37,022 nt of DNA from Eubacteriales Family XIII. Incertae Sedis bacterium. Lineage in GTDB: Bacteria; Bacillota; Clostridia; Peptostreptococcales; Anaerovoracaceae. The DNA lies in the NCBI GenBank assembly GCA_031266025.1, contig JAISBV010000021.1:1-37022 (forward strand). The letters are read 5' to 3'. The position numbers were made by a program, and so were the translations under genes. How positions within the stretch are numbered: position 1 is the first letter of the stretch; each line of letters opens with the position of its first letter. Shown one piece after another: positions 7,708 through 35,149 of this stretch. The notes beneath the pieces were generated by a model. The model was given only the letters and a program-made list of their open reading frames with translations. It did not search any database and was not told where the DNA came from.

Positions 7708-8814
7708 CTATCTGTAATTTGAAGGCGCGGAAAGCAACGCGTCAATAAGTTCGTTACCCAACTCGCCCGAGCTTTGTCTGCATTCTTCGATCAGCGGAAT
7801 CGCCGCGTCAACGAAGACTTGGTTCTCTTCTTCCGTCAGATAATATATGGTACCGCCCGAATTTTCAACATCGGCTTTGAATGTGTTGAACTGTTCTTCA
7901 ATAAGGTCTTTGCCGTACTCCTGCGCTTCTGCGGCGGCCCTGATCATTATGTCCTGCTGTCCCGCGCTGAGTCCGTTCCATACATCCAAGTTTACAGCCA
8001 TGGGAGACCAGCAGGATTTCGCTATCTTCGCGTACGATATATACGGCGCGTTTTCGAAACATCTGTAAGAATGAATGAATCCCCAACCCGTAAAGCCTCC
8101 GTCTACGGTTCCTTTGTCGAGCGCCACCGCGATATCGGCCGGCATGACGGTCTGCGGGGATGCGCCCCATTCGGAAATGGATTTGCCGATCCACATGCCG
8201 TGATCCCTCAGACGCAAGCCGCCGATGTCGGCGGGAGAGTGGACGTCCTTTTGGTTTTTCTTATTCAAATAGAATACGGAGTCTGTTTCGTCAAAGATCA
8301 TCAGGCCTTTTTGATTTTGTGTTTCAAGTATCTTATCCAACGTCGGCTTTATGATCTCGTATGTTTCCCAAAAATAGTCGGGATCGTATATGCCCTGAAT
8401 GTCAAGCGGCGCAAGAGCGGGCACCTCGGATGTGTTGAAGGACAACGAGCCCATGCCTATATCGGCCGAACCGTTGGCTGTGGATTTCAATGCGTCCTGC
8501 GAGGTGACGAGGGTTTGAGACGGAAATGGGGTTACGGATATATTGCCGTCCGAGTATTCGTCGCAAAGATCCGCGAATCTCTGCATAGCCATGGCTCTGT
8601 AGTCGGACGTCGGAAACGGATGTCCGAGATTCATACTTACGGGCGAGCCGAGATCCGCGGCGTCGGTCGAACCTTCGTCGGTTTCGCCCGATTCCGATGA
8701 TGCGGGATCGTTTCCCTGCGCGGATTCGCCTCCGTCTCCGCCGGAACAGGCGGCAAAGGACAGTAAAGCAAACAACACGATCAGCGAAAGAAATAAAAAT
8801 TGTTTTTTAGCCAT
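7708..8814 (-). CDS. dctP: TRAP transporter solute-binding lipoprotein (DctP family)
   Basis: This 368-residue protein starts at ATG (8814), which has GGAGGA 7 bases upstream; an in-frame ATG six codons earlier lacks such a site. Residues 1-22 are a signal peptide ending in a lipobox (FAAC, C23), followed by a Gly/Ser/Glu-rich tether, so it is an extracytoplasmic lipoprotein. The DctP fold is clear: LGHPFPTSDYRAMAMQRFAD near the start, then GGLRLRD with the conserved carboxylate-binding Arg, and GASPQTVMPADIAVALDKG with VDGG after it. It captures an organic anion for the permease pair downstream. The upstream decarboxylase gene ends 17 bases before its start, showing tight coupling. Confidence 0.92.
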   Translation of the reverse strand: MAKKQFLFLSLIVLFALLSFAACSGGDGGESAQGNDPASSESGETDEGSTDAADLGSPVSMNLGHPFPTSDYRAMAMQRFADLCDEYSDGNISVTPFPSQTLVTSQDALKSTANGSADIGMGSLSFNTSEVPALAPLDIQGIYDPDYFWETYEIIKPTLDKILETQNQKGLMIFDETDSVFYLNKKNQKDVHSPADIGGLRLRDHGMWIGKSISEWGASPQTVMPADIAVALDKGTVDGGFTGWGFIHSYRCFENAPYISYAKIAKSCWSPMAVNLDVWNGLSAGQQDIMIRAAAEAQEYGKDLIEEQFNTFKADVENSGGTIYYLTEEENQVFVDAAIPLIEECRQSSGELGNELIDALLSAPSNYR

Positions 8815-8831
8815 AATGCTTCCTCCATTCA

Positions 8832-9809
8832 TTAGATACCGGTGAGTTTAAATAAATCTATGCTGTTTTGCCTGCCGATCAATTTCTTGTCCGTATCGCC
8901 GATAGAACAATTGTCGAACCATTCACACGCGTCGCCGACTTCTTCAAACGGAAAATCCGTAGCGAAGAGGATGCGGCTCGAACTGAACTCCATGATGGTG
9001 TTCCAAAGCGCGGGCGTACGGAATTGTCCGCTCGTCGTGAACCGGAAATTCTCCGCCATATACTCATAGAGCGGGCGTTTTGCGGGAATTCCTCTGCGTT
9101 CTCGCGCTATCCTGCTTTGAGTGCGCCATATACAAAAAGGCAGTGTTTCACCAAGATGTCCAAGAATGTATTTCAGGCCCGGATGCCTGTCAAAAAGTCC
9201 GCTGCACAATAAACGCAGCGTATGGGTGGCGGTTTCTACGCCGAAAGTCCACGCGGCGCCGACAAGCCAAGGGTGTCCGTCCACCATATGCGTATTGCAC
9301 GGCATGGCGTCGCGCGGATGCATATAGAAAGGTACGTCGAGTTTTTCCACTTCGGCCCAGAATGGTTCGTATATAGGATCATCCAAGTATTTATATGTGT
9401 TTTCGTCGCCTATCTGCGAATAACCGTTGACTAATACGCCCACGCAACCCAAATCCTTGACGGCTCGATGCATTTCTTTGATGGCCTCATCCACATCTTG
9501 CATCGGCAGGGCGGCAAAGCCCCTGAATCTCTTGTAGTTCCTTGTTATGGCTTCCGCCATGGCGTCATTTGCTTTTTTCGCGACCTCGACCGCTCGTTTC
9601 GGATCATAAATTGCTTGAATCGCGGGTGAATTAAGTGACAGGATCATCATATCCATGCCGTATTCATCCATTTCATCTATGCGAATCTTCATCAAATCCA
9701 ATATCTTGGCGGAAAATTTCGGCCACACGTCTTTTGGGAAATATCGCTCCGAGTCTCCCAATGTTTCAAGAATCGCGAAATGTTCTTCCAAGCCTATTTT
9801 GCCTTTCAT
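8832..9809 (-). CDS. Gamma-resorcylate decarboxylase-like amidohydrolase
   Basis: This 325-residue protein belongs to the amidohydrolase-2 (ACMSD) superfamily. Its start KIGLEEHFAI, the segments MILSLNSPAIQAI and FYMHPRD, and its length match the 2,6-dihydroxybenzoate (gamma-resorcylate) decarboxylases, about 327 residues. Metal ligands known in that family are all here: E8, H10, H164 and D285 (in LFATDFPFE), plus the catalytic H218 in GHLGE. These enzymes remove CO2 non-oxidatively from hydroxybenzoates (gamma-resorcylate to resorcinol) and can run in reverse. The ATG at 9809 has GGAGAGG close upstream. It lies between a second family member and the TRAP binding protein, which suggests it acts on the imported acid. 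Substrate specificity within the family is inferred, not shown. Confidence 0.85.
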   Translation of the reverse strand: MKGKIGLEEHFAILETLGDSERYFPKDVWPKFSAKILDLMKIRIDEMDEYGMDMMILSLNSPAIQAIYDPKRAVEVAKKANDAMAEAITRNYKRFRGFAALPMQDVDEAIKEMHRAVKDLGCVGVLVNGYSQIGDENTYKYLDDPIYEPFWAEVEKLDVPFYMHPRDAMPCNTHMVDGHPWLVGAAWTFGVETATHTLRLLCSGLFDRHPGLKYILGHLGETLPFCIWRTQSRIARERRGIPAKRPLYEYMAENFRFTTSGQFRTPALWNTIMEFSSSRILFATDFPFEEVGDACEWFDNCSIGDTDKKLIGRQNSIDLFKLTGI

Positions 9810-9837
9810 GACCTCTCCTTTCTTTAATTACGCAAAA

Positions 9838-9886
9838 TAACGCAAACGGGTTCAATACCCGTTCGCAAGCTCCGGGCACGCGTGTA
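9838..9886 (-). repeat. Dispersed palindromic repeat, family 2, short copy
   Basis: About 49 bp lie between the two decarboxylase genes. On the minus strand it matches 19943-19992 almost base for base. Positions 9856-9879 are the 24-nt module also found at 19950-19973 and 35091-35114. It contains a 7-bp stem, AACGGGT (9845-9851) with ACCCGTT (9857-9863), around the loop TCAAT. Placed inside an operon, it will be transcribed as a hairpin. Confidence 0.75.
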
Positions 9887-9908
9887 CCGCAGCTTGCCGC
9901 AGGGCAGG

Positions 9909-10907
9909 CTATTGACTGACGTTCAGCAGACGCTCCGCGTTTTTAAAGAACAGAAAATCCCTTTCTTCCCCGGTCAAGTCAAGCTTTTTTACATAACCGG
10001 TCATTGCGTCTATGTTTTCGTACGGGTAGTCGCTGCCGAAAATGATATTTTCAATACCGATGACGTCTTTTGTGCATTGGAACGCGGCCCTCGACATGTT
10101 GCCGCTCGTCGTGACTTTGATATTGTTTCCAAAGTAATCGCTTGGTTTTTTTTGGTTTTTTATCCTGTCATTCGGTAAAAAATTCAGCCTGTTATCAATT
10201 CTGTCAAGCAGAAAGGGGATTGCCTCGCCAAGGTGTCCCAGAACGATTTTCGTTTCGGGAACACGGTCAAATATCCCTGTAACAATCAGTTTCATAACAG
10301 TCAGATAGGCGTCAAGCGTAAATCCGGCTGCGGGCCCCGCGAATGTGAACCCGTATTCGGCGAAATCCTTGTAAACGGGAAGTGTTGGGTGGAGGTATAT
10401 GTATACTCCCAACTCCGCGGCGGTTTCAAATATGGGAATGAATTTTTCCTGTTCTATGGACTCGTCGGTATAGTTCGAATGCGTGTGCCAACATACAAAT
10501 CCAAGCTCGTTCACACAGCGTCTCAGCTCTTTGCACGAAGCGTTTACGTCCTTGACCGGAAGCGCGGCCGAGCCAAGATAGCGCCCACTGTATTTTTGTG
10601 TCAGCGCATAAGTTTTGTCGTTGTTTTTCTTCGTGAGTCCAATGCTTTCAGACGGGTCAAGTTCCTCCAAGCCCTGAGACGGGCTGATAACGGCCGTCGT
10701 TATTCCGGTTCGGTTCATCGTATTGATTCGCCCGTCCGTATCCACAAGGAGGTCATGCAAAACGCCGAATGGCATTGTTATCTTTTCATTCCAGTTTATA
10801 GCTTTCGCTTCTCTGTCAAAATACGGATAGCCCTTGCGGTTTGCCATTGCTTCGACTGTCTCGGAGTCGTAATAGTGGTTTTCAAGATCGATCAATTTCA
10901 TTTCCAT
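9909..10907 (-). CDS. Amidohydrolase-2 family decarboxylase or hydrolase
   Basis: This is a 332-residue ACMSD-superfamily protein, distantly similar to its downstream neighbour. The ATG at 10907 is chosen because GGAG lies 9 bases before it; an in-frame ATG 13 codons upstream lacks one. Expected metal-site motifs are present: LENHYY near the start (E-x-H), YLHPT, GHLGEAIPF and IIFGSDYPYEN with the final Asp. The insertion around residues 35-60 differs from gamma-resorcylate decarboxylase, so it probably takes a different substrate. Being first in the TRAP operon, it could process the same imported acid or the next intermediate. A decarboxylase is most likely; a hydrolase of this family is not excluded. 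Confidence 0.8.
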   Translation of the reverse strand: MEMKLIDLENHYYDSETVEAMANRKGYPYFDREAKAINWNEKITMPFGVLHDLLVDTDGRINTMNRTGITTAVISPSQGLEELDPSESIGLTKKNNDKTYALTQKYSGRYLGSAALPVKDVNASCKELRRCVNELGFVCWHTHSNYTDESIEQEKFIPIFETAAELGVYIYLHPTLPVYKDFAEYGFTFAGPAAGFTLDAYLTVMKLIVTGIFDRVPETKIVLGHLGEAIPFLLDRIDNRLNFLPNDRIKNQKKPSDYFGNNIKVTTSGNMSRAAFQCTKDVIGIENIIFGSDYPYENIDAMTGYVKKLDLTGEERDFLFFKNAERLLNVSQ

Positions 10908-17387: not shown

Positions 17388-17399
17388 TGAAAAAAAGGC

Positions 17400-17577
17400 T
17401 ACTACTCAAAGGTTCAATCAAGACTACTCAAACGCCGCGTCAGTTTTGTGCAGGCCGGGTTCTGAGAGCTGATTTGGCTCCCCGGAACGTACTCGAAGCT
17501 ACGTGAGGAAGACAAATCAGCTCTCAGGTTCCGGAATGGGTAAAAATCACGTGGGGTTTGAGTAGTTACAAAAAGGA
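17400..17577 (+). repeat. Structured leader element, family 1, short copy
   Basis: This 178-bp element lies immediately upstream of the antiporter gene and includes its Shine-Dalgarno. Its concentric arms are an outer 11-bp ACTACTCAAAC (17423-17433) with GTTTGAGTAGT (17556-17566), and an inner perfect 15-bp stem at 17462-17476 with 17513-17527. The inner stem is flanked by CCGG/CCGG across a symmetric GTT/GTT loop. The 36-nt centre, 17476-17511, is identical to 34972-35007 in the second copy. It could be a MITE-like mobile palindrome or a cis-acting RNA. Confidence 0.8.
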
Positions 17578-34799: not shown

Positions 34800-34805
34800 T
34801 AATGT

Positions 34806-35149
34806 TACTGCTCAAAGATTTCAATTAAAACTACTCAAACGCCGCGTCAGTTTCGCTCAGGCCGGGTTCTGAAAGCTGAGTTGCCTTTTTGCCCCGAAGC
34901 TTTGCTTCGGCAGGCAAAACGGACAGCGAAGCGAACGAAGTGAGCGTAGGAATGTGGCAAAGCCACATGTTGGCTCCCCGGAACGTACTCGAAGCTACGT
35001 GAGGAAGGCAGCACGGCTGTCCGTTTTCCCATTGCGGCTAAAGCCGCGGGAAAAAGGCAACTCAGCTTTCAGGTTCCGGAATGGGCACTTGTGCCCGGAG
35101 CTTGCGAACGGGTAAAAATCACGTGGAGTTTGTGTAGTTACCAAAAGGA
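34806..35149 (+). repeat. Structured leader element, family 1, long copy with nested stems
   Basis: This is a 344-bp element ending at the Shine-Dalgarno of the GHL10-SLH gene. It shares both flanks and the 36-nt centre (34972-35007) with 17400-17577 but has extra concentric parts: a 22-bp perfect stem (34869-34890 with 35051-35072), a 12-bp stem (34916-34927 with 35016-35027), and small hairpins such as GTGGCAAAGCCAC and GCGGCTAAAGCCGC. A 27-nt module, including the 24-nt sequence at 35091-35114 shared with family 2, is inserted between GGG and TAAAAATC relative to the short copy. Confidence 0.8.

Follow-up and report, generated by a model that had tools for sequence, protein, structure and literature searches.

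How two unrelated genes come to be preceded by copies of one palindrome, each reaching up to a ribosome-binding site, is the question raised by this locus. The window, a stretch of 37,022 nucleotides, is contig C73 of G000, a 2.6-Mb genome in 162 contigs that we take to be a Clostridiales Family XIII bin and that presumably comes from a termite gut, as read from the isolate names of the MAGs of its closest protein relatives. Neither tRNA genes nor Rfam families were found in the window. The two copies and their identical centre of 36 nt (GGCTCCCCGGAACGTACTCGAAGCTACGTGAGGAAG) are present as the initial annotation described them, and the two differences between their stems are indeed compensated. 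We consider, at a probability of roughly 85%, that the palindrome is a non-autonomous, MITE-like mobile element and that the genes downstream are bystanders.

The element proper spans G(T/C)TAC through GTTAC, with approximate bounds at 17398–17569 for the short copy and 34804–35141 for the long copy, both on the forward strand. The short copy, a mobile palindrome of 172 bp recovered by genome BLAST and flanked by a target duplication matching at seven of eight positions, AAAAAGG(C/A), has a reverse-strand gene on one side and an antiporter-like ORF, whose ATG follows, on the other. Its left end (17398–17447, weight-matrix score 78.2) is composed of an outer repeat GCTACTACTCAAA, the segment TCAATCAAG and an inner arm ACTACTCAAACGCCGCGTCAGTTTT. 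The left arm of the inner stem (17462–17476) pairs with the right arm (17513–17527) in the covariation alignment A1, whose columns 76–79 and 127–130 take several Watson–Crick types. Between these arms lies the conserved central core CCCCGGAACGTAC...TACGTGAGGAAG (17480–17512), with columns that are invariant in 63 copies and that are also present outside the family, and the copy closes with the right end ATCACGTGGGGTTTGAGTAGTTAC (17540–17569), recognized by both the end pattern and the weight matrix. The long copy is a composite of 338 bp in which the same ends and core are accompanied by extra stem modules: an inserted module GCCTTTTTGCCCCGAAGC...CATGTTGG (34883–34972), with relatives lacking the element on C114, C20, C49, C72, C15, C54 and C79, and a side hairpin GGGCACTTGTGCCCGGAGCTTGCGAACGG (35084–35111), which other copies have on the left arm in reverse complement. 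Its right end (35112–35141) was located with the weight matrix. Compared with shuffled sequences, the two window copies reach fold-stability z-scores of −8.35 and −8.52. Separately, GCCTTTTTGCCCCGAAGC...GGCAAAACGGACAGCG forms a second repeat family, nested in the long copy at 34883–34972 and solitary elsewhere (C114:17862, C20:21761, C49:12989, C72:30950 and C15:27931, and also on C54 and C79).

The Shine-Dalgarno sequence, which had been counted as part of the element, proves not to be: the element ends at GTTAC, just before the Shine-Dalgarno, which is host sequence. At the short copy, this host sequence (AAAAAGGA, 17570–17577) overlaps the target duplication, the AAAAAGG 3' of the element repeating the AAAAAGG before its left end (7/8). 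At the long copy, a target duplication is not visible, and the comparison is provided by locus L089 of a related genome: the gene pair is the same, as are the divergent neighbour, the promoter-like region and the Shine-Dalgarno, but the element is lacking. Because this empty site carries the same Shine-Dalgarno, the latter belongs to the host.

The element is abundant well beyond the window. Used as a BLAST query against the genome, the short copy returned dozens of copies with E-values down to 1e-75, and an end-pattern search of the genome gave 77 matches to the right end and 50 to the left end, against 0 in the reversed control; the resemblance of the window pair is therefore not due to chance. 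A weight-matrix scan of the fetched regions of G000 gave at least 61 left–right pairs, that is, complete copies, whose lengths by the matrix bounds are mostly 170–172 or 196–198 bp, with some of 74–103 bp and one of 336 bp; about 20 right-only and 3 left-only ends were also found by matrix scanning. The typical element is close to 172 bp, starts with GTTAC and finishes with GTAAC or GTTAC, and its terminal inverted repeats are GTTACTRCTCAAA and TTTGAGYAGTWAC. Many copies are also present in four genomes of the same genus and in one of another genus. A covariance-model search matched 56 of 350 family genomes at E 0.001, with matches being trustworthy only above about 55 bits; as model R1 gives true copies read on the wrong strand scores as high as 50 bits, its matches below about 50 bits were set aside. 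In a tree, the copies group by genome (11 changes, compared with 22.4 when shuffled).

Mobility, already suspected, is backed by this dispersal, by the empty site in L089 and by target duplications. Clean 8-bp duplications occur in relatives (L070, L075 and L076: CGCTCCGC, CTATATCG and GAGTCTTT), and 14 of the 61 copies in G000 match at 7–8 of the 8 flank bases, while shuffling gives a mean of 1.0 and a maximum of 5. Short, multi-copy and dispersed, devoid of a transposase gene, and bounded by inverted repeats and target duplications of fixed length, the element shows several of the features by which MITEs are defined. Its insertion into intergenic DNA, duplicating 8 bp of the target, would depend on a transposase acting in trans, and the genes downstream would simply have retained their own Shine-Dalgarno. 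The hisH–hisA spacer, as identified from translations, holds an antisense copy both in G000 (C119:25872, L194) and in G004 (C135, L068); these were considered as an orthologous insertion, but the tree places them apart and their inner stems differ, and they are probably two independent insertions.

The initial annotation had raised the possibility of a leader RNA at the two genes downstream. Such a leader or riboswitch would agree with the position of both window copies, which end 15–16 nt upstream of a start codon, and with a fold conserved on the very strand expected to be transcribed at these genes. Of 80 copies, however, only 38 have a downstream gene pointing the same way (by crude ORF calling), so that orientation is not fixed 5' of one gene class, and more than 60 copies adjoin unrelated genes. 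A start codon with a ribosome site lies within 45 nt of the right end in 26 of 80 copies, and many of the remainder adjoin the stop codon of a facing gene. L089, moreover, has the gene without the element, and searches of Rfam 15 at gathering and lax thresholds left the element unmatched, returning only chance microRNA-like hairpin hits. Since the copies show no preference for lying in the same orientation as the gene that follows, the leader idea fails, and we regard it as very improbable. The annotation had specified that copies lying at random with respect to starts and lacking covariation would leave a passive repeat; placement does ignore starts, whereas the covariation stays. Divergent spacers, where promoters lie, contain the fewest copies (9, compared with 22 in convergent spacers), and gene placement fits insertion into short spacers under purifying selection. 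As an observation apart, a minimal copy in L172 (C84:31737–31820) lies in frame near the start of an ORF for a predicted lipoprotein or binding protein, where the element may supply coding sequence.

What selection has kept is the fold, and the proposal of a selected hairpin is not only upheld but strengthened by an asymmetry between strands. In a structure alignment of 63 copies from eight genomes, the consensus comprises 49 pairs, 36 of them with double changes; 97.4% of the paired cells are complementary, compared with 89.1% after shuffling and no more than 44% when the alignment is slid, and none of 500 shuffles reached the observed pairing or double-change count. The inner-stem pairs take several Watson–Crick types, indicating that whole stems were replaced while pairing persisted. 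G.U cells number 425 and A.C cells 49, symmetric mismatches being counted too, and six pairs are fixed as G.U while none is fixed as A.C. The forward strand folds more stably in all 63 copies. The same holds for 38 of 45 further core loci, not all of them independent; enterobacterial core loci show no clear strand preference. Neither strand would be preferred in a passive DNA palindrome, and selection hence acts on a single strand, whether RNA or DNA. An account in which the arms correct each other by hairpin-templated repair, with no selection at all, would explain how whole inner stems were swapped between subfamilies with pairing kept, but such repair should favour neither G.U over A.C nor the same strand in 63 of 63 copies, and the unpaired core is conserved as well; we hold it to be improbable. 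The strand whose fold selection keeps is the one that runs toward GTTAC, be it RNA or single-stranded DNA. A reading of the core as a kink-turn was rejected, as it does not hold for all subfamilies.

In the mobile-element reading, this hairpin would serve the element itself, possibly as the form recognized for mobility; alternatively, a compact fold might keep insertions in transcribed regions harmless. The strand bias exceeds what a plain DNA MITE needs, and the excess of right-only over left-only copies is not predicted by cut-and-paste transposition. Both features would fit a retroelement whose RNA is reverse-transcribed at the target, leaving variably 5'-truncated copies with a constant 3' end: the fold is strand-specific, and the right-only copies, which lack differing lengths of the 5' part, outnumber the left-only ones. 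Nevertheless, no RVT_1 match was found in G001–G004, G010, G016, G024 and G189, and among the carriers a reverse transcriptase is present only in G000, on C77. There, two such genes with an HNH-like tail (L367:5057–6874 and 8578–10461), beside ParB-like and coupling-protein-like genes, look like group II intron proteins, which they probably are, in what is probably an integrated conjugative element. The target duplications have a constant 8 bp, the ends are inverted, and the truncated copies have no clear duplications by eye; a retroelement origin thus appears doubtful.

A different observation concerns a truncated right end located just upstream of a full copy, an arrangement seen at C27:27939, C37:10726, C43:43323, C46:53494, C88:13137, C92:8657 and C158:3011, and at L246 in another genus. 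The truncated end has the private variants of the full copy, and the spacer is mostly the same sequence of roughly 8 bp that lies 3' of the full copy. No instance of the mirror arrangement was seen. Tandem duplication followed by decay is a possible origin, although it does not predict the one-sidedness.

With respect to the machinery, elements of the IS66 family generate an 8-bp duplication and have a GTAA-like end. The element resembles them in both, its right end reading 5'-GTAAC from outside, so that derivation from an IS66 element deserves consideration. Its left end, in contrast, is GTTAC and not GTAA, the IS66 transposase TnpC (PF03050) was detected in none of the eight carrier genomes searched, whose assemblies are incomplete, and none of 30 IS66 loci from the same family has ends of the element type; we therefore judge an IS66-derived MITE to be rather unlikely. 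A scan for inverted end pairs enclosing 0.45–4 kb, performed on 1.27 Mb that took in part of G000, gave 28 candidate pairs bounded by GTTACTACTCAAA ends, none with matching 8-bp flanks as an autonomous element would have. C84 and C107 carry long orphan end pairs, but the genes between these ends are ordinary, and the pairs were discarded. Pattern scans of viral contigs produced no match.

Among known systems, the element is most readily compared with bacterial MITEs such as QMITE2 of Coxiella burnetii, which is shorter than 500 bp, with a core of 113–145 bp, inverted ends and direct repeats of 7–9 bp, and whose transcript is predicted to form one long hairpin (PMC10969869). Small size, inverted ends, direct repeats and a long hairpin are common to both. 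Unlike QMITE2, the element has a fold for which selection on one strand is demonstrated, together with a core common to palindromes in other phyla, and its parent IS was not found.

This core is what extends beyond the family. Its loop, CGGARCGTAC-n-TACGTGAG, is nearly invariant in the 63 copies, and palindromes repeated between the genes of some other Bacillota, Alphaproteobacteria, Salmonella and E. coli have the central loop CGGAGCGUAC-n-UACGUGAG as well. The exact core pattern occurs up to 131 times per carrier genome and in 10 of 398 genomes across the phylum, with 0 matches for the reversed pattern in both cases. With a 32-nt core query, intergenic palindromes came to light in Phyllobacterium, Sphingobium and Aminobacter and, in Salmonella, between dnaN and recF; a 42-nt query led to a locus in E. 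coli, read as glnA–glnL from its translations. In a 22-kb search, model R1, which was built from the Clostridial copies, reaches E 2–3e-6 on Salmonella and E. coli, the E. coli repeat core matching at 3e-6 with different arms. The glnA–glnL repeat, which we take to be 'box C', shares the core CCCGGAGCGTAC...GTACGTGAGGA, is intergenic and occupies several places per genome (median of 5 in E. coli), but its arms differ from those of the element, and the enterobacterial examples show no clear forward-strand preference. RPE-1 of Rickettsia may have a core resembling that of the element; its peptide AYIDVRED would fit a core GCGTAC...GTACGTGAGGA, and a search of plasmids with this peptide gave no match. 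The Rickettsia palindromic elements (RPE-1) are mobile palindromes of about 150 bp (PMC10969869). Two further features were noted: a small palindrome CAATCGGTCAAACCCCGCGTGGGGTTTGACCGATTAC with a similar ending, which may represent a sister family, just upstream (in element orientation) of the copy at C150:3352 in L200, and a cobalamin riboswitch (L260:307–486, reverse strand, 92.3 bits) near a core-like hairpin on a relative's contig.

The distribution of these sequences suggests a wide superfamily defined by the shared core. More tentatively, this could be an ancient, multi-phylum superfamily of mobile palindromes whose arms are free to turn over while all retain, on one strand, the structured core CGGARCGUAC-n-UACGUGAG, in which the internal loop is rich in purines; this would imply a shared factor recognizing the folded strand, for mobility or for tolerance.

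Covariation that ends at a Shine-Dalgarno can thus stem from a mobile element that duplicated this site when it inserted, which calls for caution when such patterns are read as leaders. The usual view of repeated bacterial palindromes is that each is lineage-specific and has no relation to the others. What deserves to be followed up is the cross-phylum core: a core common to Clostridia, Alphaproteobacteria and enterobacteria, together with selection on one strand, would join many of these palindromes into one class with a common factor.
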